A stretch of DNA of 64,000 nt from Candidatus Thiodiazotropha sp. CDECU1 (GTDB lineage Bacteria; Pseudomonadota; Gammaproteobacteria; Chromatiales; Chromatiaceae). Under the pieces are notes generated by a model. The model was not told the DNA's origin. It did not search any database and worked only from the letters and a program-made list of their open reading frames with translations. The position numbers were made by a program, and so were the translations under genes. Positions 2,186-50,424 of this stretch are shown here, piece after piece. The stretch is taken from the NCBI RefSeq assembly GCF_963455295.1, contig NZ_OY734020.1:434001-498000 (forward strand), written 5' to 3'. Each line of letters opens with the position of its first letter. The stretch's first letter is position 1.

Positions 2186-5074
2186 CTACTCTTCCGCGGT
2201 GGGCTCGCTCGGTTGGTGGGTGGGATTGAGCTTGTCAGTGTCGTCGATGGGCCGTTGTGATTGCTCTCTCTCCAGGAGGCGGGTTAATTCTTCCGCGGGT
2301 ATGGGAGTCGAGAAAAGATACCCTTGTGCCAAGTCGCAACCATGCTGTGCCAGGTGGGTTAACTGAGCTTCGGTTTCCACGCCTTCGGCGACAACGGCAA
2401 GTCCCAAGCCATGAGCCATGGCGATTGTCGCATTGACCAGTTCTCGGTCGGCGGGATCGGCAGTAATGTCCCTGACGAAGCTGCGGTCGATCTTCAGGAT
2501 GTCAAAGGGATAACTGCGCAGGTTGCTGAGTGAGGAATAACCGGTACCGAAATCGTCCATGGCGAGGGTGATTCCCAGTGCATTCAACTCTGACAGGGTG
2601 TCGTCAATATAGCTGTGGCCACTCATCAACACACCTTCGGTAATCTCCAGTTCAATCGAATCGCTTGGAACCCCTGTCTGCTCCATCGCCCCTTTGATAT
2701 GTTGCAAAAGATTTGGATCCCTGAACTGACGGGGTGAGATATTGATGGCCACTCTGAAAGGCCTGTTCAACAACTTCAGCCATTGAGCCGTCTTGCTCAG
2801 CGCCTCCTGAATCACAAACTGGCCGATGGATACGATCTGCCCGGTTTGTTCGGTGATGGGAATGAACTCGTCCGGGTTTATTTTTCCCAGTACCTTGCTG
2901 TTCCAGCGCAGAAGCGCCTCGGTTGCGACTATCTTGCGGCTGGTAATATCCAGAATAGGTTGATAATCGAGTCGAAATTCACCCCGTTCCAAAGCGCCAT
3001 GCAGTTGTTCTTCGAGCTGCAGACGGCGGGAAACCCCCTTGTTCATCGCACGGGTGAAGTAATTGAAAGTGTTACGGCCCTGTTCTTTTGACTGGTACAT
3101 GGCGGTATCCGCATTGCGAAGCAGTTCCGCGGGATTGTCCCCGTCGTTGGGGTAGATAGCGATGCCGATACTGGCGGTGAGTATTAATTCGCGCCCGTCG
3201 AGCAGGAAGGCTTTTCTGAAACAGTTGAGCAGCTTTTCCGCAACCGGATGGACCTCTTTTTCACCGTTTATGCTGCCAAGCAGAATAATAAATTCGTCGC
3301 CACCCAACCGGCTGACCGTATCATCGATTCGCACTGCATTTTTTAGTCGCTTGGCTGCCTCTACCAGTAGTTTGTCGCCGACTTCGTGACTAATAGAGTC
3401 ATTGATCTTCTTGAAATCATCCAGGTCAAGAAATATCACGGCAGCCTTGTGTTTGTTGCGTTGCGCTTCTTTAATGATTTGCGAGAGTCGATCGAGGGTA
3501 AGAAAACGGTTTGGCAGGTCTGTCAGGCTGTCGTAGTTGGCTTGATGAATGATTTTTTCTCCCTGCTGTTTTTGCAGGGTGATATCCTCTTTCACGGCCA
3601 GGTAGTGGCTGGTGTTCCCTGAGTCATCCACGACAGGGGCTATATAGGCGCGTTCCCAGAAGAGTTGGCCATTCTTTTTTCGATTTTGCAGTTCACCCTG
3701 CCAGGATTCGCCCGAAGTGATTGCATTCCACAGGTCGGTGAAAAGAGCTGGAGGTGTGTTTTCCGATTTAAGAATCCTTGGATTCTTACCTATGACTTCC
3801 GAAGCCTGATAACCGGTCGCTATTTCAAAGGCTTTGTTGACATATTCGATTTCTCCGTCTGTGTCGGTCATGACCACTGAGACCGGGCTTTGTTCTACAG
3901 CCTGCAACAGAGTACGGATGCGTTTTTCTGCCCTCTTTCGTTCGCTGATATCGCGAAAATTGACCACCGTGCCTACGATCTTGCCCTGTCGGTAAATGGG
4001 GTTGCTGGAGTATTCCACTGGCAAGGGACTGCCATCCTTGCGCCAGAAAACCTCATCGTCCACAGTTTCCAGGGCCCCGCCTTTCAAGACTTGCAGCATA
4101 CGGCATTCCGAGGCTGGATAGTGCGACCCATCACTGCGGGAGTGATGGATCAGCGAATGATTCTCTCGTCCGATCAGTTCATCGGGGTTATAACCCAGAA
4201 TGCGTGAAGCGGCTGGATTGACAAAGGTGGTGAGACCGTGGGTATCAACGCCGTAGATCCCCTCAACAGTGGTATCCAAAAGCAGTTGTAACTGATCTTC
4301 AGCCTGCTTGCGGTTCTCAATCGCCTTTCCGACCCTGGCCAGGGTGATATACAGCAGATAGCCTGACAGGCTTAGCGCCAGAAAGACAATTGGGATGCGA
4401 AATGTATTGTGCAGACCTTCTGCTTGTTTAAGATCCAGGGTCAGCGTAGTGATTCTGTTTTGACTGACATAAAGAATACTGGCTGCATTTTCCTGAGTGC
4501 GCTGCAGGACTGTATTGATGGTCTTTATCAGGTTGTCGATGCGGATTTGCAGGCCTGCAGACTGGGCGGGGCTTTCGTTGATTCTTTGCTTGATCAACTG
4601 ATGCAACAGCTGCACCTGGTTATCCAATTCGTGTATGGCTGGGCTGAGCTCGAGCACTTCAAGCACATAGCCTTCCATTGCTGGTTTTTCATAGGAAGCG
4701 ACCAGGTTCATGATATTGTGTCCTGGAATGTTGGTCGCTATCTCGTCCTCAAATACACCGCCGTTGTGTAGCACTTCAAGCCCTTTTGTGATCGTCAGCA
4801 GGTTGTAATCAAAGCGTTTTTTTACGATCTCAAGTTCGAGCTCGTTATGCAGTGTACTTAGTTTGTAGATGGAAGCCTTGGCCGAAAAAAGCCGTTGATA
4901 GATTGATAATCCGATCTCCTGTCGTGCCTTCTGGTTAATCAGTCTTGCCTCAATATGGGCGCTTTTTTCACGCAGCCCGATATTTACCACAACCAATATG
5001 GCTACGATGGTCAGGATGGATAGCGCCAAGCCGATGATTTGTCGCTGTATGGGATGTTCAGTTAAGTGAGGCAT
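2186..5074 (-). CDS. Membrane PAS-PAS-GGDEF-EAL c-di-GMP enzyme
   Basis: Predicted to make and/or degrade cyclic di-GMP at the inner membrane. The 962-aa protein has a membrane segment at about 12-33, a ~190-residue helical periplasmic region, a second membrane segment at about 225-248, two PAS domains (about 260-385 and 390-505), a GGDEF domain (about 520-680) with intact RLGGDEF, and an EAL domain (about 695-940) with EALLRW, DDFGTGYSSL and KIDRSFV. Both catalytic signatures look complete, so the net activity cannot be predicted. It starts 12 bp after the stop of the solute-binding-protein gene at 5087-5857, so the two are almost certainly one operon, and the periplasmic helical region may read the state of that binding protein. 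Confidence 0.93.
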   Translation of the reverse strand: MPHLTEHPIQRQIIGLALSILTIVAILVVVNIGLREKSAHIEARLINQKARQEIGLSIYQRLFSAKASIYKLSTLHNELELEIVKKRFDYNLLTITKGLEVLHNGGVFEDEIATNIPGHNIMNLVASYEKPAMEGYVLEVLELSPAIHELDNQVQLLHQLIKQRINESPAQSAGLQIRIDNLIKTINTVLQRTQENAASILYVSQNRITTLTLDLKQAEGLHNTFRIPIVFLALSLSGYLLYITLARVGKAIENRKQAEDQLQLLLDTTVEGIYGVDTHGLTTFVNPAASRILGYNPDELIGRENHSLIHHSRSDGSHYPASECRMLQVLKGGALETVDDEVFWRKDGSPLPVEYSSNPIYRQGKIVGTVVNFRDISERKRAEKRIRTLLQAVEQSPVSVVMTDTDGEIEYVNKAFEIATGYQASEVIGKNPRILKSENTPPALFTDLWNAITSGESWQGELQNRKKNGQLFWERAYIAPVVDDSGNTSHYLAVKEDITLQKQQGEKIIHQANYDSLTDLPNRFLTLDRLSQIIKEAQRNKHKAAVIFLDLDDFKKINDSISHEVGDKLLVEAAKRLKNAVRIDDTVSRLGGDEFIILLGSINGEKEVHPVAEKLLNCFRKAFLLDGRELILTASIGIAIYPNDGDNPAELLRNADTAMYQSKEQGRNTFNYFTRAMNKGVSRRLQLEEQLHGALERGEFRLDYQPILDITSRKIVATEALLRWNSKVLGKINPDEFIPITEQTGQIVSIGQFVIQEALSKTAQWLKLLNRPFRVAINISPRQFRDPNLLQHIKGAMEQTGVPSDSIELEITEGVLMSGHSYIDDTLSELNALGITLAMDDFGTGYSSLSNLRSYPFDILKIDRSFVRDITADPADRELVNATIAMAHGLGLAVVAEGVETEAQLTHLAQHGCDLAQGYLFSTPIPAEELTRLLEREQSQRPIDDTDKLNPTHQPSEPTAEE

Positions 5075-7967: not shown

Positions 7968-10355
7968 CTATTTGCCGCGAAACAGCAGGGGCACTACATC
8001 CTCGAATATAGAGGCGAAGTGGACCTTGAGTCCTTTGCGGATATGCTCAGGTACCTCTTCGTAGTCGCTGCGATTATCTTCCGGCAATATCAACTCCCTG
8101 ATCCCGGCACGTCGGGCGGCAATTACCTTCTCGCGGATACCTCCCACCGGGAAGACCTGACCGGTCAGGGTCAACTCGCCGGTCATGGCGATATTCCGCA
8201 CCGGTTTTTTCCTCGCCAGGGAGAGTAGTGCCGAGGCCATGGTGATGCCCGCGGAGGGACCATCTTTCGGTGTGGCGCCCGCAGGCACATGCAGATGGAT
8301 GAATGCCTTGCTGAAAAAGTCCTGATCGGCAGCAAACTCATCCGCATGGCTTACGATATAGCCATAGGCGATCTCTGCGGACTCGCGCATCACATCCCCC
8401 AACTGGCCGGTGAGTTTGAAACCCCGGTTGAATTCGTGGGTGGCGACCGCCTCGATGTTGAGGGTAGCGCCGCCCATCGCGGTCCAGGCCAGGCCAGTTA
8501 CCACCCCGGCGCCGCTCAGATTGCGTTCATCCTTGAATACGGGACCGCCCAGATAGTCCTTGAGGCCATCCTTGGTCACCTCAATCGGTTTCTTCGCCCC
8601 CTCGAGGATTTTCACCACCGCCTTGCGTACTATCTTGCCGATCTGTTTCTCCAGGCGGCGGACACCGGCATCCCGGGCATAGCCTTCGATAATGGCTCGC
8701 AGGACACTGCTGTTGAGTTTCAGGTCACTGCGTTTCAATCCCGCCCGTTGCAGTTGTCGCGGCAAAAGATATTTTCGCGCGATCTGCAGTTTTTCGCTGG
8801 CGATGTAGCCCGACAGGGCAATCGTCTCCATGCGGTCGAGCAGGGGTCTTGGAATAGTATCGAGCTGATTCGCGGTACAGATGAAGAGTACCTTCGAGAG
8901 GTCGAAACGCAGATCCAGATAGTGGTCGAGGAAATCACTGTTTTGCTCGGGATCGAGCACTTCCAACAATGCGGAGGCGGGGTCCCCATGATAGGAGGCA
9001 CCGATCTTGTCGATCTCATCGAGCATGATCACCGGGTTTTGGGTTCCCGCATCTTTCATCGCCTGCAGAAACTTGCCCGGCATGGCGCCGATATAGGTGC
9101 GCCGGTGTCCCTTGATCTCAGCCTCATCGCGAATGCCGCCCACGGAGAAACGGTAGAATTTACGTCCGAGGGCCTCCGCAATGGAGTGGCCGATGGAGGT
9201 CTTGCCGACGCCGGGTGGGCCCACCAGCAGGATGATGGAACCCGCGATCTCTCCCTTCATGATACCGAGGGCGAGGAATTCAAGGATGCGTTCCTTGACA
9301 TCGTCCAGGCCGTAGTGGTCCTTATCCAGGGACTTGCGGGCGAACTGCAGGTCGAGCTTGTCCTCCGAGTGGCTGCCCCAGGGCAGCAGGGTGATCCAAT
9401 CCAGATAGTTGCGGGTTACCGAGTATTCCGGTGAGCCGGGTTCCAGCACCGCGAGTTTGTCCATCTCCTCTTCGACCCTTGCCTGGGCCTGCTCGGTCAG
9501 GGTCAGTTTTTCGAGCCTTTCACGGAACTTGTCCAACTCGGCGGTTCGGTCGTCCTTCTCTATCCCCAGTTCCTGTTGAATCGCCTTCAACTGCTCGCGC
9601 AGCAGAAACTCCCGTTGCTGCTTCTCCATGCGCTGTTCCACCGTTTTACGGATCGAGGCCTGGGCCTTGACCACCTCCAGTTCGCGATGCAGCAGTTCCA
9701 ACACCTTTTCCATGCGGGGCAGGAGTTCGACGCTCTCGAGAACCCCCTGAAGTTGGAATTTATCCGAGGTGGTGAGGCTGGCGGCGAAGTCGGTCAAGTG
9801 GGATGGGTCATCCGGACCAAAGCGGTCGAGGAACATCCGCAGCTCTTCCGCATAGAGGGGGTTGAGAGGCAACAGCTCCTTGATGGTATTGATGATTGCG
9901 ACTGCATAGGGTTTGATCTCCTTGCTGTCACTGGCCGGCTCGGGCAGATACTCGATCTGGGCGGTGAAGGGGGTTTGCGGGTGCACGATTTCATCGATAC
10001 GGAAACGTTGCAGACACTCCACCAGCACCTGTAAGCGGTTTTCCGAGCGCTGTACGCGATGCACGCGGCAGACTGTGCCGATGCTCTTGAAGCTGTCGGG
10101 TGTGGAGCTTTCGGCGGTTTCCGCATCGGACAGAACCACCCCAAGCAGGTTGTGGGGGGAGCTCATCACCGCGTCCATGGTCTTCTCCCAATGGGCCTGA
10201 TCCATCAGCAGTGGTACCGCCTGACCGGGAAAGAAGGGCCTGGCCGAGACAGGCAACAGGTGGATCAGGTTGGGCAGGACCTCGTTGGATCGCGCCAGGG
10301 TGTTACCGCTTATGACCTCGACAATCTCTTCTTGGTTATTCTCGTCTTCCTGCAT
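7968..10355 (-). CDS. lon: ATP-dependent Lon protease
   Basis: Cytosolic AAA+ serine protease for misfolded and regulatory proteins; 795 aa, the usual Lon length. The N-terminal substrate-binding domain begins LPNLIHLLPVSARPFFPGQ, a coiled-coil region follows (about 180-300), then the Walker A GPPGVGKTS and Walker B VIMLDEIDK of the AAA module. The C-terminal protease domain has PKDGPSAGITM with catalytic Ser at about 701 and the paired Lys at about 743 (GGIREKVIAA). The acidic start MQEDENNQEEIVEVISGNTLA is longer than in E. coli Lon and suggests the second Lon paralogue found in some gammaproteobacteria. GGTAGC precedes the ATG. Stand-alone transcription from the 10.4 kb gap is likely. Confidence 0.95.
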   Translation of the reverse strand: MQEDENNQEEIVEVISGNTLARSNEVLPNLIHLLPVSARPFFPGQAVPLLMDQAHWEKTMDAVMSSPHNLLGVVLSDAETAESSTPDSFKSIGTVCRVHRVQRSENRLQVLVECLQRFRIDEIVHPQTPFTAQIEYLPEPASDSKEIKPYAVAIINTIKELLPLNPLYAEELRMFLDRFGPDDPSHLTDFAASLTTSDKFQLQGVLESVELLPRMEKVLELLHRELEVVKAQASIRKTVEQRMEKQQREFLLREQLKAIQQELGIEKDDRTAELDKFRERLEKLTLTEQAQARVEEEMDKLAVLEPGSPEYSVTRNYLDWITLLPWGSHSEDKLDLQFARKSLDKDHYGLDDVKERILEFLALGIMKGEIAGSIILLVGPPGVGKTSIGHSIAEALGRKFYRFSVGGIRDEAEIKGHRRTYIGAMPGKFLQAMKDAGTQNPVIMLDEIDKIGASYHGDPASALLEVLDPEQNSDFLDHYLDLRFDLSKVLFICTANQLDTIPRPLLDRMETIALSGYIASEKLQIARKYLLPRQLQRAGLKRSDLKLNSSVLRAIIEGYARDAGVRRLEKQIGKIVRKAVVKILEGAKKPIEVTKDGLKDYLGGPVFKDERNLSGAGVVTGLAWTAMGGATLNIEAVATHEFNRGFKLTGQLGDVMRESAEIAYGYIVSHADEFAADQDFFSKAFIHLHVPAGATPKDGPSAGITMASALLSLARKKPVRNIAMTGELTLTGQVFPVGGIREKVIAARRAGIRELILPEDNRSDYEEVPEHIRKGLKVHFASIFEDVVPLLFRGK

Positions 10356-19296: not shown

Positions 19297-19455
19297 GGCT
19301 GGAACGGTTTATTCACATAAATGGGTAGTGATTGAACGATTCGTTCAATGTTTCTGAGTCTAGGATCCAGGGCAGACTCAGCAACGATTCATTCCCTTTC
19401 GAAGTAGGTCAAATTACACCAAAGTAGGTAGTACGTGTAACACTCTGTATTCCCC
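19297..19455 (+). promoter_or_regulatory. Enhancer-type activator site block of the dodecahaem cytochrome gene
   Basis: Two palindromic sites, TGGAACGGTTTATTCAC (19300-19316) and TTGAACGATTCGTTCAA (19332-19348, perfect except the centre), lie 32 bp apart centre to centre, three helical turns. Further down, CTTTCGAAGTAG (19396-19407) and TGTAAC (19436-19441) are conserved. The same block, in the same order and orientation relative to its gene, lies at 48972-48823 upstream of the cytochrome c/DUF302/TlpA operon; the spacing differs by only one 10-bp step. It ends about 80 bp before a sigma-54 type promoter, so it is best read as upstream activator sites. Confidence 0.8.
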
Positions 19456-19535
19456 TACAATTTGTCATCCAATACAACTATAAAATTGTTCCTTCGCTTG
19501 GATTTTCTAGCTCTCGACCCCTTATGAATTTGTCT

Positions 19536-19551
19536 TGGTATGGATCTTGCC
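19536..19551 (+). promoter_or_regulatory. Sigma-54 (RpoN) promoter
   Basis: TGGTATGGATCTTGCC has the invariant GG at -24 and GC at -12 separated by ten bases, and matches TGGCACG-N4-TTGC at most positions. Its -12 element lies 210 bp after the centre of the perfect palindrome and predicts a transcript start near 19562, giving a leader of about 124 nt. The equivalent site at 48729-48744 is TGGTATAGTTCTTGCA. Confidence 0.75.
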
Positions 19552-19685
19552 ATTATTACCATGCATTGCGTGTGTTTATCAGTGGGGAGTGATCACAAAC
19601 AAGAGGTTGAATGGGTGTGAAATCCCTTTTCGCCGCTTCCGTCGGTCGGAAGCATCTTTTCTTATTCTTTTGGGAGCTAAAAAAA

Positions 19686-22037
19686 ATGAAACGCCTAGCA
19701 TTACTTGCAGTAGTGGCGTTAGTCGGATGGGGTAGTGGAGGTTCTACTTTCGTCCCTATCGCTGAAGCCGAAGGCAAAGCCTGTCTGGCTTGTCACGATG
19801 GCGTTGAACGCTTTAGTGACGGCGTCATGCAGGAAGATATTGAAAAGATGGGCGCCGAACACGGCGATCCCGCGGGTTGCGTGGTCTGTCACGGTGGTAA
19901 CCCAGCCGAAGAGAAGGACAAGATGAAGGCCCATATGGGCTCTCCTTCCGACCTTGCCAAGAAGGGTGGTCCCAAGAACTTCCTCCCCGATCCCGGCGCA
20001 ATGCCGGTAAACGACCAGGCCTGTGGTCAGTGCCACTCCGGTTACTACGATCGTATGAACAAGTCCCTGATGAATACCGAGGCCGGTAAGCTGCAGGGTA
20101 ACATGTGGTCCTGGGGCTATCAGAAAGACATGAAGGTTGTCTGGGGCAACTACGACGTGATGGACGAAGATGGTCCTGTACCTCTGGTGGGTACCAAGGC
20201 CTACAAGAAGTACATGAAGGACTTCGTCAAGAAACATCCGGACCAGATGCCCAAACGTCTGAAACAGCTGCCTCAGGTGGATCTGGCCAAGTTGACCGAC
20301 AATCCCAATCATGCGGGTCTTACCTACTCCCGTCATGACTGTCAGCGCTGTCACGTTGGCGTTACCGGTCGCGACAAGCGTGGTGACTATCGTGGTTCCG
20401 GTTGTTCCGCCTGTCACGTGCCTTACTCCAATGATGGTTTCTACGAAGGCGGCGATCCCACCATCAAGAAGGACGAAGCGGGTCACATACTGACTCACCG
20501 CATGCAGGGCACCCGTAAGAGCAAGGTCAAGGTTGGCGAGGTTGAATACTCCGGTATCCCGGTTGAAACCTGTGTCTCCTGTCACAACCGCGGTAAGCGT
20601 GTCGGCGTGAGCTATCAGGGCATCATGGAACAGCCTTACGGCTCTCCTTTCAATGCAAAGGGTAAGAAACAGCCGAAGATGCACACCAAGCGTTACCTGT
20701 TCATCAAGGAAGACCTGCATCATGAGATGAACTCCATTGCGGGTAACCCGAAAGGTGGGATGCTGTGTCAGGACTGCCATACCACCATCGACCTGCACGG
20801 TGACGGCAACATCGCCGGTACCACCCTGGCTCAGGTTGAGGTCGAGTGTGAAGACTGCCACGGTACCTTCAACACGCTACCCTGGGATCTGCCCCTGGGC
20901 CGTGGTGAAGAGTTCGGTGAGATGAAGGACGGTATGCCGACTGCCAACGCCAATCCTCGCGGTCTTGGCAAGAAGTGGCCGGAGTACATGAAAGACGCGA
21001 CCCAGTACGAACCTGAGGATGGTTTCCTGCTGACCGCTCGCGGCAACCCCCTGGGTAATGTGGTGAAGAAGGGCAAGGACGTTATCGTTCACTCCGCCAA
21101 CGGTCTGGACTTCAGGGTTCCACTGCTGAAGCAGATCGGCGACGAAGGCACCTTCAAATCAACCCTGGCCAAGGTTTCCATGTTCCTGATCCCTCAGCAT
21201 CAGAACAACATGGAGTGCTACGCTTGTCACGCCGACTGGGTTCCCCAGTGTTATGGCTGCCATGTCACTGTTGACTACTCCAAGGGCAATGAGGGTACCG
21301 ACTGGCTGGTCAACGCCAATAATCGTGATCCCAAGACCGGTCTGACCCCGGATGCGCCTCCTACCACCAACGGCATGAAGAGCCCGGGCAAAGTCATGGA
21401 GACCCGCTCCTATCTGCGTTGGGAGACTCCGGTACTCGGTATCAACGGTGAAGGCCGTGTCAGTCCGATGATGCCTGGTTGTCAGGTAACCACCACGGTT
21501 ATCGACAAAGACGGCAAGACCCTGGTCAATAACAAGATCTGGGAAACCCCTGAAGGCCCAGGTATCGACACCGCCGCCGTACAGCCTCATACCGCTGGCC
21601 GTAGCGCGCGTAGCTGTGAGTCCTGTCACGACAATCCCAAGGCATTGGGCTACGGTGTTGAAGGCGGCCGCTTCCTGCTGGGTGCTGACAAGGACTTCGT
21701 CCTGGATCTGAAGGACTCCGCTTCCGGTAAGATCATTCCTCAGAAGACCCAGGTTCAGATCCCCGGTATCCCCGGCCTGACCTACGACTGGTCTGCGATC
21801 GTTACTGAGGATGGCGAACAGCTGAGTTCCGTAGGTTCTCACTGGCCGCTGACAGGTCCTCTGCCTGATGAGAAGCGTGACGCCATCGAGAAGACCGGTG
21901 TCTGCCTCGGATGTCACGAAGAGCGTTTCAATCCTGACTTCTGGAACAAGGTATCCCAACCTGGCGTTATGGATAGCTTCGAACACCAGCAGTTCATGAA
22001 GAAAGCGCTGAAGGCTATTGCTGCTCAGAAGAAGTAA
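19686..22037 (+). CDS. Periplasmic dodecahaem c-type cytochrome
   Basis: Exported multihaem electron carrier or reductase, 783 aa. A signal peptide ends near residue 28 (IAEAEG). Twelve CXXCH motifs are present, from CLACH at residue 33 through CVVCH, CGQCH, CQRCH, CSACH, CVSCH, CQDCH, CEDCH, CYACH, CYGCH and CESCH to CLGCH at residue 740. One further cysteine, at about 599 (MMPGC), is not in a haem motif and no CXXCK motif occurs. I do not recognise it as a characterised multihaem enzyme (not NrfA, Hao, Otr or MtrA in pattern). GGGAG sits 9 nt before the ATG at 19686; the in-frame ATG at 19611 lacks this. A terminator follows at 22081. A sigma-54 promoter with enhancer sites precedes it. Confidence 0.88.
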   Translation: MKRLALLAVVALVGWGSGGSTFVPIAEAEGKACLACHDGVERFSDGVMQEDIEKMGAEHGDPAGCVVCHGGNPAEEKDKMKAHMGSPSDLAKKGGPKNFLPDPGAMPVNDQACGQCHSGYYDRMNKSLMNTEAGKLQGNMWSWGYQKDMKVVWGNYDVMDEDGPVPLVGTKAYKKYMKDFVKKHPDQMPKRLKQLPQVDLAKLTDNPNHAGLTYSRHDCQRCHVGVTGRDKRGDYRGSGCSACHVPYSNDGFYEGGDPTIKKDEAGHILTHRMQGTRKSKVKVGEVEYSGIPVETCVSCHNRGKRVGVSYQGIMEQPYGSPFNAKGKKQPKMHTKRYLFIKEDLHHEMNSIAGNPKGGMLCQDCHTTIDLHGDGNIAGTTLAQVEVECEDCHGTFNTLPWDLPLGRGEEFGEMKDGMPTANANPRGLGKKWPEYMKDATQYEPEDGFLLTARGNPLGNVVKKGKDVIVHSANGLDFRVPLLKQIGDEGTFKSTLAKVSMFLIPQHQNNMECYACHADWVPQCYGCHVTVDYSKGNEGTDWLVNANNRDPKTGLTPDAPPTTNGMKSPGKVMETRSYLRWETPVLGINGEGRVSPMMPGCQVTTTVIDKDGKTLVNNKIWETPEGPGIDTAAVQPHTAGRSARSCESCHDNPKALGYGVEGGRFLLGADKDFVLDLKDSASGKIIPQKTQVQIPGIPGLTYDWSAIVTEDGEQLSSVGSHWPLTGPLPDEKRDAIEKTGVCLGCHEERFNPDFWNKVSQPGVMDSFEHQQFMKKALKAIAAQKK

Positions 22038-22195: not shown

Positions 22196-22314
22196 AAGCA
22201 GTTGTCTGTTTTTAAGATATATTTTTTGCCTATATTTTATTGTTGAATAGATCTTGATTTACGACTCTATGCTTCAATGATGAAACTTTCAGAATTGTAA
22301 TCGGTAGGAATGTG

Positions 22315-23454
22315 ATGGTTAAAAGAGCGTTCAAATGGTTGTCGGGAACAGGCCCACGCAGCCTGGTGCTTGGTATCGGTATCGTTGCCGGTATTATTGG
22401 TTGGGGCGGTTTTAACACCTTCATGGAATATACCAATAGTTATGAATTCTGTACTTCCTGCCACGAAATGAGCGTGGTGAAGGGGGAGTATCAAGAGTCT
22501 GCCCACGCACACAATCCCTCTGGTGTCCCGGCTATCTGTTCAGACTGCCATGTGCCGAAACCCTGGGGTGCAAAACTGGTGCGTAAAATCATGGCGACCA
22601 AGGAGTTGTACCATTGGGCATTGGGAACCATCGATACGCCGGAGAAGTTTGAACAACATCGGATGCAACTTGCCAATAAAGTATGGGATACCATGGAGAA
22701 GAGTGACTCCCGCGAGTGCCGTAACTGCCATACGAACGAAACAATGCTGACTGACAAGCAGACTTCATTGGCGCAAAAGATGCACAAGAAGCTTATGAGT
22801 GGTGAACAGACCTGTATCAATTGTCACAAAGGGATTGCCCATAAATTACCTGTGGAGAGTCTTTATGCGAAGATGGAAGCCGAATATCAGACAGAAACCA
22901 ACAATTCCCAACTGGCTGACAAAGCGGTTGTGATCCTGCCTGAAGCGGAAATGACAGCTACTCCGGATGGCGAGGATCCTTTGGCAACACTGTATGGCGG
23001 TACGCCTTTGATGGTTGTCAAACAGGAGGGAGATTGGGTTCAAGTGACAAGTGAAGGTTGGGACAGGGAAGAGGGCAGTCAGATCTTTATAGATTTCAAT
23101 CGTGCTGTCGCGCTGGCGAAGATGAATTTCGATGGTATGGATCGAGTGGAGAAGATAGAGAGCAGGCTGGAGCCGGAGTATGAGTTGACCTGGAACCGTA
23201 TCAAGCTCACCGGATGGGTGCCCCGCGCTGCCGTTGGACCCAGTGAAGAGAGGTTCTGGGAGTATGTGACCGACCTGCATGAGGTGGATTGCAATCTGTG
23301 TCACAAAACCTATCCACGTGATAAGTGGATCATGTTCGATTGGCGCAATAATCTGAAGGAGATGCGCCGTTACACCAAACTGAGTCAGGAACAGTTGCAA
23401 TTGGTCAGTAACTGGGTGCTGCGCGGTGCGCGTAATGATGCGGAGGCGGATTGA
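22315..23454 (+). CDS. NapC/NirT-TorC-like pentahaem quinol dehydrogenase
   Basis: Predicted membrane-anchored quinol oxidase subunit that passes electrons from the quinone pool to periplasmic partners; 379 aa. One N-terminal helix (about 17-37) is followed by the NapC tetrahaem module with CTSCH (then EM as in NapC), CSDCH, CRNCH and CINCH. An SH3-like stretch (LYGGTPLMVVKQEGDWVQV) and a C-terminal fifth haem CNLCH follow, the layout of TorC rather than of plain NapC. The start at 22315 has AGGA 5 nt upstream. No terminal oxidoreductase of the TorA type is adjacent, so the dodecahaem protein just upstream is the likely electron acceptor. The next gene's ATG overlaps its stop. Confidence 0.88.
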   Translation: MVKRAFKWLSGTGPRSLVLGIGIVAGIIGWGGFNTFMEYTNSYEFCTSCHEMSVVKGEYQESAHAHNPSGVPAICSDCHVPKPWGAKLVRKIMATKELYHWALGTIDTPEKFEQHRMQLANKVWDTMEKSDSRECRNCHTNETMLTDKQTSLAQKMHKKLMSGEQTCINCHKGIAHKLPVESLYAKMEAEYQTETNNSQLADKAVVILPEAEMTATPDGEDPLATLYGGTPLMVVKQEGDWVQVTSEGWDREEGSQIFIDFNRAVALAKMNFDGMDRVEKIESRLEPEYELTWNRIKLTGWVPRAAVGPSEERFWEYVTDLHEVDCNLCHKTYPRDKWIMFDWRNNLKEMRRYTKLSQEQLQLVSNWVLRGARNDAEAD

Positions 23455-24035
23455 TGAAAAAGCCACTGGTTATGGCTGTTTTGATCTTGGCGTTTGGATA
23501 TTGCGTCGGTCCTGCCTTGGCAAAGGCGGCGGATGAAGGCGCGATGAAAGAACCGCAGATGCCCATGCCGATGCAGCGGGATCACCTGTTCGAAGAGCGA
23601 GCCGGAACCTGGAAGGCGACATGCGACGAGATGGAGGAGAACAAGGTCTACTGCCGCATGTTTCACATCGAACAGTTCGGTGAGTGGAAAGCCAAGAATT
23701 TTATCCAGGTGGGGCCAGCGTGGACACCGGATTCCATTGGCTTTGTGGTCGCCACCTACCAGGGATTCAAGGCGGGAACCACTGTCACTATCGGCATCGA
23801 TAAGCACAGCCGTCACAAGATCACGGCACCCAAGGGGAACAACCTGATGATCTCCCCTGAAATTGCCGCGAAGATCCTTGATGAGATGGAGAAGGGACAC
23901 AAAATTGTGGTCACTTTCAACTCTCACAGCGGGGTCCGCCACCTCACTCTGGCCGACTTGGGGCCATATAAAGAGCTACTGGCGAAAGTGAAAGGGCGAT
24001 TGGCGAAAAACAGCCAGGCGACAAGTGCTGAATAG
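23454..24035 (+). CDS. Periplasmic IalB-like protein
   Basis: Exported protein of 193 aa with a signal peptide ending near residue 24 (ALAKA). The core TWKATCDEMEENKVYCRMFHIEQ shows the W-x-x-x-C ... Y-C-x-M pattern of the invasion-associated locus B family, a periplasmic beta-sandwich of unclear biochemical role. GTTVTIGIDKH and ISPEIAAKILDEMEKG follow as in that family. Its ATG overlaps the TGA of the quinol dehydrogenase (TGATG), so it is translationally coupled to it. It probably serves as a partner or assembly factor of the redox system, which is inference from position only. Confidence 0.72.
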   Translation: MKKPLVMAVLILAFGYCVGPALAKAADEGAMKEPQMPMPMQRDHLFEERAGTWKATCDEMEENKVYCRMFHIEQFGEWKAKNFIQVGPAWTPDSIGFVVATYQGFKAGTTVTIGIDKHSRHKITAPKGNNLMISPEIAAKILDEMEKGHKIVVTFNSHSGVRHLTLADLGPYKELLAKVKGRLAKNSQATSAE

Positions 24036-24058
24036 GGAACAGTGGGTTTGGAGTGGTT

Positions 24059-24988
24059 ATGGCTAGATTGGTTATCGTAGTTATCGCGCTCTGTTTGGGG
24101 CTTATTACTCAGGTGGTTGCTGGTGATATGCCTGCCAAAGAGACGCCACAAACTGGTTTCCGCGTGGGTGTTACACAGCCGCCTATGTTTACCCTGGCTT
24201 CTGCCCTGGCATGGGGCAGCCCGGTGGAAGTCCTGTTGGTAGAGAGGGATGTGGATGCTCGCTGGCAGATACCCGATGATCTCACGGTCCTCTTCTGGAG
24301 TGGTGCGACGTTAGAGCCCGAGCTTGGGAAGCAGTTGGCGGAATCCGGCCAGGCATCAGTCTCCTTGATTGACGCTGCAGGGGTTCACCAGTTGGCCAAA
24401 CGAACCCCGGCAGACTGGAAAGGACCGAATGAAGATGACGATCCGCACATGGAGTCATTGGGAAAGGGATATGGCATGGTGCAAACCATTCGACCCGAAG
24501 GCCTGATAGACACAAAGTATTGGCTCGATCCGTTGAACGCAATGGCGGCCCTGGAAGCGATAACCATGGTTTTCCAGGGATTGGATCAACGCAACCACTG
24601 GGGCTACCAAAGTAATTCAGATCAGATTATCCAGGCCCTATGGGAGCTGGATATTCGGATTAACAAGCTGTTGCACGAAGCCAGTAGTCACCCGTTTGTG
24701 GTCTTGCAGGATGACTTTCAGTACCTTGAACAGCGCTATAAGCTGATAACAGTTCCAGCCGGCGGAAGCGCCCGGGACATCGTTGATAAGGCCAAGGCCC
24801 GGGGCGCAAAATGCGTGGTGGCGGCAGAACCTTTTGATCAGCATCTCCAATCCATATTGGATCAGGCTGGTTTGAACAGTGTTGTATTGGATCCCGCTGG
24901 TCAAGAGATGCCCAAAACCACGGGAGGCTACTTTCAGTGGTTTGGCAATCTGGTATCCAAACTGAATCACTGCGTGACTCGATCATAA
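24059..24988 (+). CDS. ZnuA-like (cluster A-I) periplasmic binding protein without metal ligands
   Basis: Exported 309-aa protein with the fold signature of zinc/manganese ABC solute-binding proteins: FRVGVTQPPMFTLASALAWG, VLFWSGATLEPEL, KYWLDPLNA, and the C-terminal VVAAEPFDQHLQSILDQAG block. The residues that bind metal in ZnuA are changed: the DPH-x-W histidine region reads DTKYWLDP and the FHDA histidine region reads LQDDF. No histidine-rich loop, ABC permease or ATPase is present. It is therefore probably not a zinc transporter component but a repurposed binding protein. GGAG precedes the ATG at 24059; its stop overlaps the next start (TAATG). Confidence 0.75.
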   Translation: MARLVIVVIALCLGLITQVVAGDMPAKETPQTGFRVGVTQPPMFTLASALAWGSPVEVLLVERDVDARWQIPDDLTVLFWSGATLEPELGKQLAESGQASVSLIDAAGVHQLAKRTPADWKGPNEDDDPHMESLGKGYGMVQTIRPEGLIDTKYWLDPLNAMAALEAITMVFQGLDQRNHWGYQSNSDQIIQALWELDIRINKLLHEASSHPFVVLQDDFQYLEQRYKLITVPAGGSARDIVDKAKARGAKCVVAAEPFDQHLQSILDQAGLNSVVLDPAGQEMPKTTGGYFQWFGNLVSKLNHCVTRS

Positions 24989-25896
24989 TGTCTTTGCTGT
25001 TGCGCATCCTGGCTCTGCTGGGGTGTCTCTGGTCATACCATCTTTCAGCCGCGCCATTGCCGGTGCTGGTGGATGGCAGCTGGCTCTCCCAGAACAAAAG
25101 TAAAGTTGTTGTTCTGGATGTCAGGACCCGGATCGAGTTCATGGGTGGCCACTGGCCGCAGGCACGTTGGGCCGGCTTTAAAGAACGTGATTGGCAGGTG
25201 GCTCGCTACGGCCTGCCCGGTTATCTGCCTGATGAGAAAAAACTGGCGGAGTTGCTGGGCAGCCTTGGATTGGAAGGCAAGGAGTCGGTGATTGTGATCG
25301 GCTCCGCCAGGCAACCCAGGCGGGTCGCTGAAGCGGCTCGTGTTGTGTGGAGCCTGATGATGGCCGGCTTTCAGCAGGTTGCACTTTTAGATGGTGGTAT
25401 TGAGTCGCTGTCCACTCACGACTTGGTCAAAGGCATGCCATCCGTGGTCCAAAAAGAGTGCACCATGAGATTCCAACCTGATCTGTTGGCCGACAGCAAT
25501 CATGTGGAAGATCTATTGGGTAATAACAGGCCAGTGATCGACCTACGGCCCAAGCCCTACTTTGAAGGCTACAAGCGAGACCCGCAGGTGCCAGAAGGCG
25601 GGACGATTTACGACGGAGTCGGGATTCCGCCTGAACGGTTACTGGATGGCGACACAGGGCGGTTCCTTCCCTCGGAGATCATCCAACAGGAGTTTGAGCG
25701 TTATGACATTCAAACCATGGGAGAACTTGCCACATTCAGCGATACCGGCGTCTGGGCTGCATTGGGTTGGTTCGTATTGCATCAGATGCTGCAAAACCCA
25801 AAAGCCCGGCTCTATGACGGTTCCCTGGTGGAGTGGATAGATTGGGGCGGGGAGATGCATGACAGCACCGATGATATGGGTGGTCCGATCGGTTAA
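24988..25896 (+). CDS. Two-domain rhodanese-like protein lacking the active-site Cys
   Basis: Exported 302-aa protein with two rhodanese modules. A signal peptide (about 1-22) is followed by module 1 with VVVLDVRTRIEFMGGHWPQA, and module 2 with VIDLRPKPYFEGY, a GGTIYDGVGIPPERL segment and the active-site loop FSDTGVWAALGWFVL. Thiosulfate sulfurtransferases of this kind normally have Y-C-N-T-G-x-W at this loop; here the catalytic cysteine position is serine. Sulfur transfer by the usual persulfide mechanism is thus unlikely; binding of a sulfur compound or a structural role is possible. It is coupled to the ZnuA-like gene by a TAATG overlap. Confidence 0.78.
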   Translation: MSLLLRILALLGCLWSYHLSAAPLPVLVDGSWLSQNKSKVVVLDVRTRIEFMGGHWPQARWAGFKERDWQVARYGLPGYLPDEKKLAELLGSLGLEGKESVIVIGSARQPRRVAEAARVVWSLMMAGFQQVALLDGGIESLSTHDLVKGMPSVVQKECTMRFQPDLLADSNHVEDLLGNNRPVIDLRPKPYFEGYKRDPQVPEGGTIYDGVGIPPERLLDGDTGRFLPSEIIQQEFERYDIQTMGELATFSDTGVWAALGWFVLHQMLQNPKARLYDGSLVEWIDWGGEMHDSTDDMGGPIG

Positions 25897-25988
25897 TGTC
25901 TGTTGTGTTTTCAGTTAAGTTTGTATGACTCAATTAACGTGCATAGGTAATATCAATGCAACACGATTACAGCTTGAGAGGGAAAGCC

Positions 25989-26744
25989 ATGAAACAACTG
26001 GTTATTGCAGTCATAGGACTGTTCCTTCTGCCCAGCCTGGCCATGGCGGCAGGGGCTCCTTTTGGTTGGCAGAGGGAGGTTACCTCCCTGGTTTCACAGC
26101 TGCAGTATGAAGAGGCGGGTGAAAAGCTGAAAGGGTACTGTATTGAAGAGAAAAGTGGCGAGCTCTGCCTTGTCCTGGCGTCGGCCTATTTTGAAGGGGA
26201 GGTTAAATTCGGCATTCAATCCAAAGACATCGTTGAGGCCTACAAATATACCAAACTCGCTTGTGATTTTGGCTCAGTGGAGGGGTGTGAAGCCTATAAA
26301 GGGGCGGTTGAGAAGGGGGAATTGCTACAGCTTGTGCTGTATGAGCCGGGTGTTAAGGATCGTGACAAACAGTTAAAAAAGGCAATTCAACTGGGGCTGG
26401 ATCCCAATGTGACAACCATGTTCAGCAGAACGCTCCTGCAAGAGGCTGTCAGTGAGGAAAAAATCGAAGCGGTCAGGCTGCTGCTGGAAAATGGCGTTGA
26501 TGTCAACTACAGGGTAAGTGAGGAGGATCTGACTCCTCTCATGTACGCCATCAACACCGGTAGTAATATGATGGTTAAGCTGTTGCTGGAATATGGCGCG
26601 GATCCCGAGCAGACGATGAAGGCGGCGGACTACCTTAAAATGGGCAAGCAGGAGGTCGACGCCTGTGATTTTGCCAATAAACTGGAGAACAGGGAGATGC
26701 TTGCCCTGCTGAAGTGTGGAGACATGGCTGCTGCTGCCGAGTAG
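25989..26744 (+). CDS. Secreted Sel1/ankyrin-repeat protein
   Basis: Exported 251-aa protein: signal peptide ending near residue 20 (LAMAAG), a Sel1-like helical region with paired cysteines (YCIEEKSGELC, KLACDFGSVEGCEAY), then ankyrin repeats (RTLLQEAVSEEKIEAVRLL, LTPLMYAINTGSNMMVKLL). Two late cysteines (ACDF, LLKCGD) may pair. The ATG at 25989 follows GAGAGGG by 6 nt and starts the signal peptide; an upstream ATG at 25956 does not. It is the last gene of the redox cluster, 92 bp after the rhodanese-like gene, and probably a periplasmic protein-interaction scaffold. Confidence 0.8.
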   Translation: MKQLVIAVIGLFLLPSLAMAAGAPFGWQREVTSLVSQLQYEEAGEKLKGYCIEEKSGELCLVLASAYFEGEVKFGIQSKDIVEAYKYTKLACDFGSVEGCEAYKGAVEKGELLQLVLYEPGVKDRDKQLKKAIQLGLDPNVTTMFSRTLLQEAVSEEKIEAVRLLLENGVDVNYRVSEEDLTPLMYAINTGSNMMVKLLLEYGADPEQTMKAADYLKMGKQEVDACDFANKLENREMLALLKCGDMAAAAE

Positions 26745-47128: not shown

Positions 47129-47725
47129 TCAACCTGATGCTTCTTGGTCGACCCTTACATTCAAGCAGTCGTTCAATAACTCCAATACTGGTTTGCTTTC
47201 CCAATCCACACCGCCAATCAAAACACCTTTTACCAGTCCTTGTTGGTCGACAAACAGCGTCTGGGGCAGCGCGCCAATACGGTGGTCATGGGAGATCTTG
47301 CCGAAACGGTCGGCAGCGACCGGCAGATTGGTTATTTCATGGGTTCGATAGAAACGCTCCGCTTCCGATAATCCTTTTCCATCCCTAACCAAGGGCAGTA
47401 TCAGCAACCGGTCACTGGAGATGCGTCCCTGCAGCCGGTCAAGGGAGGGCATCTCCTCTCTGCATGGGGTACACCAGGTGGTCCAGAAATTGACAAGCAG
47501 GGCGCGTGGGCCGGGAAGAGAGGCCAAATCGATCTTTTCACCGCCATCGGTGGTAAACGCCTGCTTGGATACCGGTCTTGGGTCGGTGTAAGCGCGAAAA
47601 ATACCGCTACCGAAAGAGCGGCTTTCACAGGCTCCCGACGACACTGGCTCAGAGAGTGCGGCAATCGGAGATGCAATAAGCCAAAGCAGGATTGGTAGAA
47701 GGAGGCGAAGACTGGAAAGTGTCAC
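47129..47725 (-). CDS. TlpA/ResA-like periplasmic thioredoxin
   Basis: 198-aa exported thiol-disulfide oxidoreductase. A signal peptide (about 1-24) precedes a thioredoxin fold with the active site NFWTTWCTPCREEMPSL (WCTPC at about 83-87) and the cis-Pro region GALPQTLFVDQQG. An extra Cys near residue 33 precedes the fold. Proteins of this type reduce apocytochrome haem-binding cysteines or protect exported thiols. It is the third gene of the operon with a cytochrome c and a DUF302 protein; its start overlaps the DUF302 stop by four bases. Likely maturation factor for the cytochromes of this regulon. Confidence 0.88.
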   Translation of the reverse strand: MTLSSLRLLLPILLWLIASPIAALSEPVSSGACESRSFGSGIFRAYTDPRPVSKQAFTTDGGEKIDLASLPGPRALLVNFWTTWCTPCREEMPSLDRLQGRISSDRLLILPLVRDGKGLSEAERFYRTHEITNLPVAADRFGKISHDHRIGALPQTLFVDQQGLVKGVLIGGVDWESKPVLELLNDCLNVRVDQEASG

Positions 47726-48159
47726 TGGGCTGCTTTCTGAGCCAGCTCCGCCATTACCTGGTCCAACTCATCCAGCAGGCTACAGTTTTGCAAGCTATAA
47801 GTGTTGCGCAATGCGCTGGGTTTGCGATAGATCACTTGGGTACCCACGTCGTCCTGGAAAACGGCTATCTTCAGGGGCAGTTCCAGACCGGCGGCGGGGT
47901 CGTGCCACATGATGCGTGAATTGTGACTGGTTTTTCCGAAAGCGATAACCTGCTTTACGGAATCCTTGTCCCCATGGTCATACACCGAAAAGATCTTGAA
48001 ACGCATTTGCTCAAGCTGCATTTTTAAGCTTTCCAGGATCTCCGCTGCGGAGTTTTTGGCATTGATTGTTACCACACCGCTGTCGGCCGCAAACACAGGA
48101 GAGGAGATAAACATAATGAGTAATAGGGGTAATATGATTCGATTGCACAAGCGGGTCAT
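47722..48159 (-). CDS. DUF302-domain periplasmic protein
   Basis: 145-aa exported protein with a signal peptide ending near residue 25 (FAAD). The DUF302 core reads AAEILESLKMQLEQMRFKIFSVYDHG ... MWHDPAAGLELPLKIAVFQDDVGTQVIYRKP, where the P-L-K-I-x-V-x-x-D and Y-x-x-P elements are family-typical. Its biochemical role is unknown; it often sits beside cytochrome or sulfur-oxidation genes. Placed between a monohaem cytochrome c and a TlpA gene in a sigma-54 controlled operon. Confidence 0.85.
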   Translation of the reverse strand: MTRLCNRIILPLLLIMFISSPVFAADSGVVTINAKNSAAEILESLKMQLEQMRFKIFSVYDHGDKDSVKQVIAFGKTSHNSRIMWHDPAAGLELPLKIAVFQDDVGTQVIYRKPSALRNTYSLQNCSLLDELDQVMAELAQKAAQ

Positions 48160-48198: not shown

Positions 48199-48621
48199 TT
48201 ATTTTAGAGACTTCAGGAATTCGATCACATTCTTCCGTTGTTTATCGCTCATAGCAGGCACACCAACAACGGGAAATGCCATTTTGTTACCGGGTACAAG
48301 CGCCTTTGGATCCTGCAAATAAGCATCGAGGGTGGTTTCATCCCAAACGATTGAATCCGCTTTGCTCAAATGGGCTTCGGAGTATTGATAACCTTCAACC
48401 GCACCGGCAGACCTGCCGTAGACACCCCACAGCGGGGGGCCGACTCTGTTCTGCTTGTCTTCGGTTATGTCATGGCATGCGAAACATTGCTTAATGGCAA
48501 CTTTCTTACCTCTTTTTACCATTTTTTTTATCGCCTTGGCTTCATCCATTGCCATAACGTCAACGCTAGCCATAGGAAAAGCGATTGCAGCAGCCAAGAC
48601 TACCAGAGCATACTTCTTCAT
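48199..48621 (-). CDS. Class I c-type cytochrome (monohaem)
   Basis: 140-aa periplasmic electron carrier. A signal peptide (about 1-24) is followed by the haem site KQCFACHDI (C-x-x-C-H) and the Met ligand in VPGNKMAFPVVGVP, with the closing helix DKQRKNVIEFLKSLK. The pattern GPPLWGVYGRSAGAVEGYQYS is that of mitochondrial-type cytochrome c2 soluble carriers. AGGAG precedes the ATG. First gene of the cytochrome c-DUF302-TlpA operon, about 100 nt downstream of the sigma-54 promoter, and a probable soluble partner of the dodecahaem system. Confidence 0.92.
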   Translation of the reverse strand: MKKYALVVLAAAIAFPMASVDVMAMDEAKAIKKMVKRGKKVAIKQCFACHDITEDKQNRVGPPLWGVYGRSAGAVEGYQYSEAHLSKADSIVWDETTLDAYLQDPKALVPGNKMAFPVVGVPAMSDKQRKNVIEFLKSLK

Positions 48622-48728: not shown

Positions 48729-48744
48729 TGCAAGAACTATACCA
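48729..48744 (-). promoter_or_regulatory. Sigma-54 (RpoN) promoter
   Basis: On the minus strand TGGTATAGTTCTTGCA, with GG at -24, GC at -12 and ten bases between. It shares TGGTAT and CTTGC with the promoter at 19536-19551. The -12 element is about 199 bp from the perfect palindrome; the transcript would start near 48718, about 97 nt before the cytochrome ATG. Confidence 0.75.
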
Positions 48745-48822: not shown

Positions 48823-48972
48823 CGGGGATCATAGCGCGTTACAGGAGCTGCCTGCCTGGATGTTATTTGCTCTACTTCGAAAGATAACGATCCACTGCAG
48901 CGAGTCAGGTATCGAAAGTATTGAACGAATCGTTCAATTGGCTTCAGTTCGTGTGAACAGTCCGTTCCAGCC
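48823..48972 (-). promoter_or_regulatory. Enhancer-type activator site block of the cytochrome c operon
   Basis: Minus-strand copy of the block at 19297-19455: TGGAACGGACTGTTCAC (48969-48953), TTGAACGATTCGTTCAA (48937-48921), CTTTCGAAGTAG (48883-48872) and TGTAAC (48843-48838). The two palindromes are again 32 bp apart centre to centre, and the CTTTCG-TGTAAC distance is 40 bp in both. Only the gap between the second palindrome and CTTTCG differs (36 versus 46 bp). Confidence 0.8.
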
Positions 48973-49689: not shown

Positions 49690-50424
49690 ATGTACACGTT
49701 TAGGCAAATTTCATGGACTTTCTTAGTTCTGTTCACCCTTGCTGGTACGCAAGTTTGGTCTTACGGAACAAGCATGTCTGACAATAATCCGGGAGCTATC
49801 GCCCACACGGCTACCGTTATGGAAACCATGTCCAGTGCCGGCTATACTTATATTCGGGTTGAGGAAAAAGGTAAAACATTCTGGATTGCATTGCCTGAAA
49901 CCCAGGTTAGTGTTGGGGAAAAGGTCAGTTTTTACGAACAGATGCTAATGGAAAACTTCACTAGTAAATCACTCAATCGAACCTTTGATAGAATTCTTTT
50001 TGTCGAGGCAATTAACAGAGGAACAGATTTACCTACAAAGGCTAAAGCAAAACCATCACCAAATATAAAATCACCTGAACAACACGCTGAAGCACAAAAT
50101 CCAAAAGAATTAGCAGCCCCTGTCGGACGTTTTACTATCAAAGATATCTTTGAAAAGAAGGATGATCTGGTCGGCAAGGTAATTGAAGTAAAGGGAAAGA
50201 TATCAAAATTATCCAGTCAAATCATGGGTAGAGATTGGGTCCACATTGAAGATGGGACAGGAGCAAAGCAGGAAAATAACAATAAGATTATCTTTCGTAC
50301 AACTCAAGTTGGATTGGCTGTAGGTGACGAAGTTGTCGGGAAAGGTGTTTTATATGTCAATAAAGATTTTGGCTATGGCTACTTCTATCCGTTAATTATT
50401 GAGGATGCTGTTTTTAGTAAATGA
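49690..50424 (+). CDS. NrfJ-like periplasmic OB-fold protein
   Basis: 244-aa exported protein. The signal peptide is about 1-24. The first domain (ATVMETMSSAGYTYIRVEEKGKTFWIALPE, KSLNRTFDRILFV) matches the NrfJ-like proteins that accompany multihaem cytochrome genes in Shewanella and Geobacter. A charged linker (about 110-150) leads to a second OB-fold domain (LVGKVIEVKGKISKLSSQIMGRDWVHIEDGTG). Its AT-rich composition differs from its neighbours. A link to the cytochrome operon 1 kb upstream is suggestive only, as it reads away from it. Confidence 0.75.
   Translation: MYTFRQISWTFLVLFTLAGTQVWSYGTSMSDNNPGAIAHTATVMETMSSAGYTYIRVEEKGKTFWIALPETQVSVGEKVSFYEQMLMENFTSKSLNRTFDRILFVEAINRGTDLPTKAKAKPSPNIKSPEQHAEAQNPKELAAPVGRFTIKDIFEKKDDLVGKVIEVKGKISKLSSQIMGRDWVHIEDGTGAKQENNNKIIFRTTQVGLAVGDEVVGKGVLYVNKDFGYGYFYPLIIEDAVFSK

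Follow-up and report, generated by a model that had tools for sequence, protein, structure and literature searches.

The two strong sites at the glnA enhancer are spaced 32 bp apart. NtrC occupies tandem upstream sites there, the DNA loops to the sigma-54 promoter and activation involves an ATP-driven ring, as described in the accessible text of PMC7408454. The regulator NmpR of Myxococcus xanthus (NmpRSTU) binds GCGCA-N5-TGCGC, with 14–15 nt between the sites in five of seven bound promoters (available sections of PMC11841059). In Geobacter sulfurreducens, the RpoN regulon extends sigma-54 control to electron-transfer c-type cytochromes, according to the accessible part of PMC2725144.

The window, the whole stretch of 64,000 nucleotides analysed here, contains two cytochrome operons (A and B), each preceded by a block of similar elements. 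Our analysis suggests, with a probability of about 0.88, that a histidine kinase–response regulator (HK–RR) pair activates both operons through sigma-54 via the palindromes in these blocks. The assignment is based on anatomy, rarity, conservation, linkage and co-occurrence with the regulator. The organism belongs to Candidatus Thiodiazotropha, symbionts of lucinid clams.

When the coordinates are re-read on the strand of the target genes, all elements of both blocks are found where the initial annotation placed them. Block A (plus strand) consists of a distal imperfect palindrome TGGAACGGTTTATTCAC (19300–19316), a predicted activator dimer site; a proximal perfect palindrome TTGAACGATTCGTTCAA (19332–19348); CTTTCGAAGTAG (19396–19407) and TGTAAC (19436–19441), both shared with block B; and a sigma-54 type −24/−12 site TGGTATGGATCTTGCC (19536–19551) matching 7/8 scored positions. 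Block B (minus strand) has the distal imperfect palindrome TGGAACGGACTGTTCAC (48953–48969), an exact copy of TTGAACGATTCGTTCAA (48921–48937), lineage-specific copies of CTTTCGAAGTAG (48872–48883) and TGTAAC (48838–48843), and the −24/−12 site TGGTATAGTTCTTGCA (48729–48744; 8/8). The score is a simple count over eight positions devised for the present analysis. In both blocks the imperfect palindrome is 17 bp long, the perfect palindrome TTGAACGAWTCGTTCAA lies 32 bp further on, and the distance from CTTTCGAAGTAG to TGTAAC is 40. The GG-N10-GC promoter, described as lying about 200 bp below the palindrome, is present 204 bp (block A) and 193 bp (block B) below the start of the perfect palindrome. 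The distal palindrome of block A is kept, at a spacing of 31–32, in nine other aligned A blocks.

The first target, A1, is a multihaem cytochrome c with 12 CxxCH motifs (dodecahaem; 19686–22037, plus strand), in an open reading frame from 19611. Translation probably starts at the ATG at 19686 and not at 19611, because homologues in six of eight loci align only from residue 26 (in L048 and L049 the alignment begins at residues 2 and 4) and a ribosome-site-like stretch, GGGAG, stands ahead of 19686. A1 has no relative in the PDB by sequence at E up to 0.001. It is followed on the plus strand by A2, a NapC/TorC-like cytochrome with 5 CxxCH (22312–23454), and by genes for a 194 aa protein, a ZnuA-like binding protein, a rhodanese-domain protein and an ankyrin-repeat protein (23451–26744); the order of these four is kept in six relatives (L046–L050 and L052). 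Operon B, on the minus strand, encodes a monohaem cytochrome c (B1; 48199–48621), a DUF302 protein (B2; 47722–48159) and a TlpA-like thioredoxin-fold protein (B3; 47129–47725). Each run is assumed to be one transcript. The interval between the operons (26745–47128) spans about 20 kb and contains an IS110 transposase and an IS3-like gene, together with a CzcA-type RND metal efflux set and a CDF-like transporter whose score is below its cut-off; it is 0.7 kb in G002 and about 6 kb of other sequence in G019. G006 has an A1 match with one in-frame TAA (L087). In G008, A1 is without a match and the B genes are missing from a 20-kb stretch; A-type palindromes and a −24/−12 element are kept there (L055, about 9630–9890) upstream of a homologue of the gene at 49690 of the window.

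The perfect palindrome is rare. Within the window, four matches are found at up to three mismatches, two of them exact, versus 0.17 expected. The 4.46-Mb genome holds three exact copies (blocks A and B and a third, site C), and among 369 sampled genomes of the class the exact palindrome occurs in this genome only. Searched with a degenerate tandem pattern of 12 fixed plus 4 two-way positions, the genome yields A and B only, and the reversed control one match; the pattern misses site C through one base. With three exact copies and a tandem pattern confined to A and B, a dispersed repeat with many copies at unrelated intergenic sites is ruled out. The initial annotation had proposed a scan for a few copies upstream of redox genes and near the gene of an enhancer-binding protein (EBP), and the three exact copies are so placed: two precede the cytochrome operons, and the third lies 157 bp beyond the stop codon of a gene for an NtrC-family RR. 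A relaxed genome scan (14 fixed positions, up to three mismatches) returned 252 matches where the reversed control had 150; the first places are listed, and the scan is too noisy for adding targets.

The RR gene next to site C encodes 458 aa (G000:C1:3549693–3551069, minus strand) and lies about 3.1 Mb from the window in contig coordinates, in line with the expectation that the regulator would be found outside it. The protein has receiver, sigma-54 AAA+ and Fis-type HTH domains. Directly upstream is the gene of an 852 aa HK with a PF21623 sensor domain and two PAS domains; its residues 68–284 resemble PDB 2p7j and 3lid. Given the sensor and PAS domains, the cue may be redox or a ligand. The genome contains one match for rpoN. 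In an alignment of 20 RRs (our own and 19 chosen from 80 loci), GAFTGA and the helix SRPRLRR are present in all 20, while the Walker A string GESGTGKE is absent from one (L154). Identity of SRPRLRR throughout is expected if the DNA code is common to all. The RR is not NtrC itself (NR(I)), since TIGR01818 scores 414 bits, below its cut-off of 558.6; of 110 families, none of the 25 listed reaches its cut-off. The regulator family also occurs in records of named Sedimenticola strains.

Another EBP might bind the palindromes, with the RR beside site C as a bystander. PF00158 matches number 30 in the genome, of which 23 are strong (E below 1e-47), and one EBP gene is about 6 kb beyond the end of the window (G000:C1:503883), far closer to block B. 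Its recognition helix, DRVSLWRKL, is different, and a role for this EBP as the regulator is not supported. We consider the bystander explanation improbable, as the linkage of RR and palindrome recurs in distant lineages and the pattern of presence and absence fits the RR, the one protein among the 23 strong EBPs for which the phyletic pattern was compared.

The linkage in distant lineages is the strongest evidence for the HK–RR pair, because the 80 RR loci were gathered using the RR protein alone. Near the RR, 20 palindrome matches with up to two mismatches were found in 17 of these loci, and none with the reversed pattern. The flank examined holds no such match in the remaining 63, many of which are other operon types, whose start may be outside that flank. 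In L108, L131, L139, L161 and L170, the RR and a multihaem cytochrome gene stand on either side of the palindromes, and in L112 these are found in the RR neighbourhood, upstream of a cytochrome. At L131, L139, L161 (with L105) and L170, the palindromes stand where the RR gene ends or shortly after, ahead of a cytochrome 54–57% identical to A1; L105 and L161, whose site sequences are identical, probably represent a single organism. The gene order in G093 (called the same species) is HK, RR, a 265-aa ORF, two palindromes 32 bp apart, a −24/−12-like element (6/8), a gene for a 12-haem cytochrome (61% identity to A1) and a NapC-like gene. L096 (G056) has a palindrome before an A1 relative (88% identity over a 421-residue part), with no RR within the 3-kb stretch. 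In the stretches retrieved around the RRs of G002, G008, G009, G011, G013 and G016 (L066–L071), there is no match with up to two mismatches.

Palindrome and regulator also occur together across genomes. RR homologues (E up to 1e-140) are present in 51 of 210 genomes of the family, a search that scored seven candidates per genome and at that depth defines absence. Exact TTGAAYGAWTCRTTCAA is found in 21 of the 210; all 21 are RR-positive, and none of the 159 genomes lacking the RR has it (hypergeometric 2.8e-15, a value that ignores relatedness between genomes that are not independent). In the genus, exact TTGAAYGAWTCRTTCAA is present in 16 of 17 RR-positive and in none of five RR-negative genomes. 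The exception is G012, whose RR match contains an internal stop and which lacks an exact site. At up to two mismatches, a match is present in 17 of the 22 genomes, which are exactly the RR-positive ones, several of these matches being isolated or intragenic. Eighteen of the 21 palindrome genomes have the pair and a promoter-like element (17 at 6/8 or more, G229 at 5/8); for G014, the partner palindrome is visible in L064. G048, G215 and G216 have isolated palindromes only, so three of the 21 co-occurring genomes are without the block.

The arrangement of pair and promoter was scored over 37 sites with at most one mismatch from 96 chosen sources; L106–L111, which repeat genus loci, were left out of this count, and short loci of some searches also fall outside the scan. 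A partner palindrome (up to six mismatches) is found at 30–34 or 40–42 bp in 35 of the 37. L148 has none, and in L060 the partner position is beyond the contig end. In the direction of the target, a −24/−12 element scores at least 6/8 at 33 sites and at least 7/8 at 26, against a background per 260-bp strand window of 0.046 and 0.009, respectively. The sigma-54-type site is located 78–80, 104–157 or 170–251 bp downstream of the palindrome. Twelve spacings, hand-picked as one per lineage, cluster at multiples of 10.5 bp (Rayleigh R 0.81, simulated p 1.35e-4). Ten further loci with at most one mismatch were scored apart: L064 is the same site as L060, and the other nine are isolated palindromes, lacking any element that scores 6 or higher and any partner with fewer than five mismatches. 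In three genomes of another genus (L102, L103 and L104, position 1501), an isolated TTGAATGAWTCATTCAA stands at the start of a conserved ORF without a partner or sigma-54 element. A blind scan for pair plus promoter was positive in 10 of 74 RR loci (mismatch sum up to 7) and 7 of 17 further upstream stretches (up to 8), with none in either reversed control; it found nothing in 64 RR loci and 10 upstream stretches. Among the seven, L223 was already a known positive, and the two matches in L215 are overlapping and weak. The reading of the initial annotation, an NtrC-family enhancer acting with sigma-54, gains support from the recurrence of this layout with sigma-54-type sites in relatives.

Perfect 17-bp palindromes are typical of other regulator families too, and the sites could on that ground be operators of a repressor or a sigma-70 regulator, next to which the GG-N10-GC matches would be incidental. 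We regard this as less probable still than a bystander RR: the strong sigma-54-type site lies downstream of 33 of the 37 palindromes at a background of 0.046 per window, an operator in blocks A and B would sit about 200 bp above its promoter, and the linked regulator has GAFTGA.

Other parts of the original description are rejected as general features. CTTTCGAAGTAG and TGTAAC, wrongly put forward as parts of the block, are lineage-specific, and most other aligned species do not retain them in the orthologous A and B promoters. Exact CTTTCGAAGTAG is found in none of 12 other A and B spacers tested; TGTAAC is also present in the A spacers of G019 and G006 and is absent from four other A and six other B spacers. 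The claimed ten-base difference in length between the blocks holds in this genome (10 to 11) but is not a fixed feature, as the promoter distances differ by 5 in G002, G016, G011 and G013 and by 9 and 10 in G006 and G019, respectively. Across 17 aligned A and B promoters, the two palindromes and the −24/−12 element are conserved and the spacers are not. The conserved core is therefore the two palindromes and the −24/−12 site. Spacer similarity between A and B is high in G000 and G006 (z versus shuffles 8.6 and 7.4), lower in G019 (3.0) and absent (z below 0) in G002, G016, G011 and G013, which makes copying or conversion in one lineage likely; CTTTCGAAGTAG and TGTAAC probably reflect one promoter copied from the other. 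That the likeness of A and B is only a functionless relic of such a duplication, as the spacers of G000 and G006 might be taken to indicate, is very improbable and largely contradicted by the species with unlike spacers, which still keep both palindromes and the −24/−12 element at both promoters.

Site C (G000:C1:3549519–3549535), read in the direction of the RR gene, has a partner palindrome 34 bp off and CGGCACAAAAAGTGCT 170 bp on (6/8). Below it, a 41-aa ORF sits in a predicted unit of about 200 nt (G000:C1:3549133–3549348, minus strand; L003 1115–1330), which may be a small RNA or a small protein. The unit has a strong terminator-like hairpin and folds better than shuffles (z −3.58). It gave no Rfam match up to E 0.1, and in a three-sequence consensus fold 3 of 58 pairs are changed on both sides, with the covariation term against the fold. 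The 41-aa ORF shows no third-position excess (substitutions by codon position 13/7/11 and 15/8/9). LuxO, which drives small RNAs, would be a parallel for an enhancer-driven RNA beside a regulator.

A second class of targets is found in seven Thiodiazotropha genomes whose RR is 65–68% identical to our own. The palindromes lie just before a HEAT-repeat gene in the six loci that reach that far. This gene heads a run with radical SAM, FAD oxidoreductase, HK and RR genes (three annotated loci), and a divergent bd-like oxidase gene is present in five of the six loci, the sixth stopping at the contig end. Five of the seven genomes (G001, G003, G007, G010 and G012) have [NiFe] hydrogenase genes after the RR; G014 and G017 do not. 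At five further loci, by title four Betaproteobacteria or Burkholderiales and one Gammaproteobacteria, a pair lies between a bd-like gene and an FAD/HK/RR run with sigma-54-type sites on both sides (L154, L160, L171 and L182 near 4700–4930; L169 near 2980–3040). Such a two-sided pair is a possible two-way enhancer for the bd-like oxidase module.

What we infer is that the RR is phosphorylated, binds the sites and activates in a sigma-54-dependent manner, and that the signal is of a redox kind; the individual steps are taken from NtrC-type systems (PMC7408454 and PMC11841059, in their accessible parts). The HK would phosphorylate the RR. One RR dimer would bind each palindrome, placing two dimers about three helical turns apart, and the paired dimers would help the AAA+ domains to form a ring. 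Through a DNA loop, the activated ring would reach sigma-54 RNA polymerase at the −24/−12 site about 200 bp downstream. This would switch on the dodecahaem/NapC-like operon together with the cytochrome c/DUF302/TlpA operon, and the third enhancer–promoter beside the regulator gene would drive the unit of about 200 nt.

On balance we lean towards a wider interpretation. An undescribed HK–RR–sigma-54 switch would use a palindrome pair of its own, spaced by three or four turns, to select electron-transfer modules in Gamma- and Betaproteobacteria. These would be dodecahaem/NapC-like cytochromes, or bd-like oxidase/radical-SAM/FAD genes, which in one Thiodiazotropha clade are accompanied by [NiFe] hydrogenase genes adjoining the RR at five of seven loci. 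In the lucinid-clam symbionts the cytochromes would have split off as a trans regulon, leaving an enhancer by the regulator that drives a short structured RNA or small peptide. The palindrome string, with either centre, does not occur in the open-access literature searched, which leaves most subscription papers outside, and PF21623 does not occur in the same search; no regulon of this HK–RR/palindrome type is among the literature matches listed, which is no proof of absence.

For the multihaem electron-transfer genes of chemosynthetic clam symbionts, the analysis provides a candidate for the regulator, a DNA code and a short list of targets. It looks as if targets and regulator came apart yet kept the enhancer, which makes the pairing of site and regulator directly testable. 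Regulation is hard to study in clam symbionts; records of named Sedimenticola strains contain the same regulator family, and a test could be made there.

The features of an NtrC-type regulon found here are the activator domains, the adjoining HK, paired dyads on one helix face, the −24/−12 site and rpoN. The system resembles NtrC at glnA, as far as the accessible account of the latter goes, in its two-component NtrC-type activator, tandem sites and sigma-54 promoter, whereas palindrome, sensor and targets differ. With NmpR it shares an NtrC-like response regulator, two dyad sites per promoter and a sigma-54 element, and the link of the NmpR regulon to respiration (oxygen utilization) is a likeness to the present redox targets (PMC11841059, available sections). 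The site here, however, is TTGAACGAWTCGTTCAA at about three or four turns, and the targets differ; membership in the NmpR regulon is rejected, as the palindromes differ by inspection from the GCGCA-N5-TGCGC given in that text. The RpoN regulon of G. sulfurreducens likewise combines sigma-54 with c-type cytochromes, though the accessible part of that report names no comparable activator-site pair (PMC2725144). The NtrC-type sigma-54 regulon is a known kind of system and, judged by its sequence features, this regulon is a further case.
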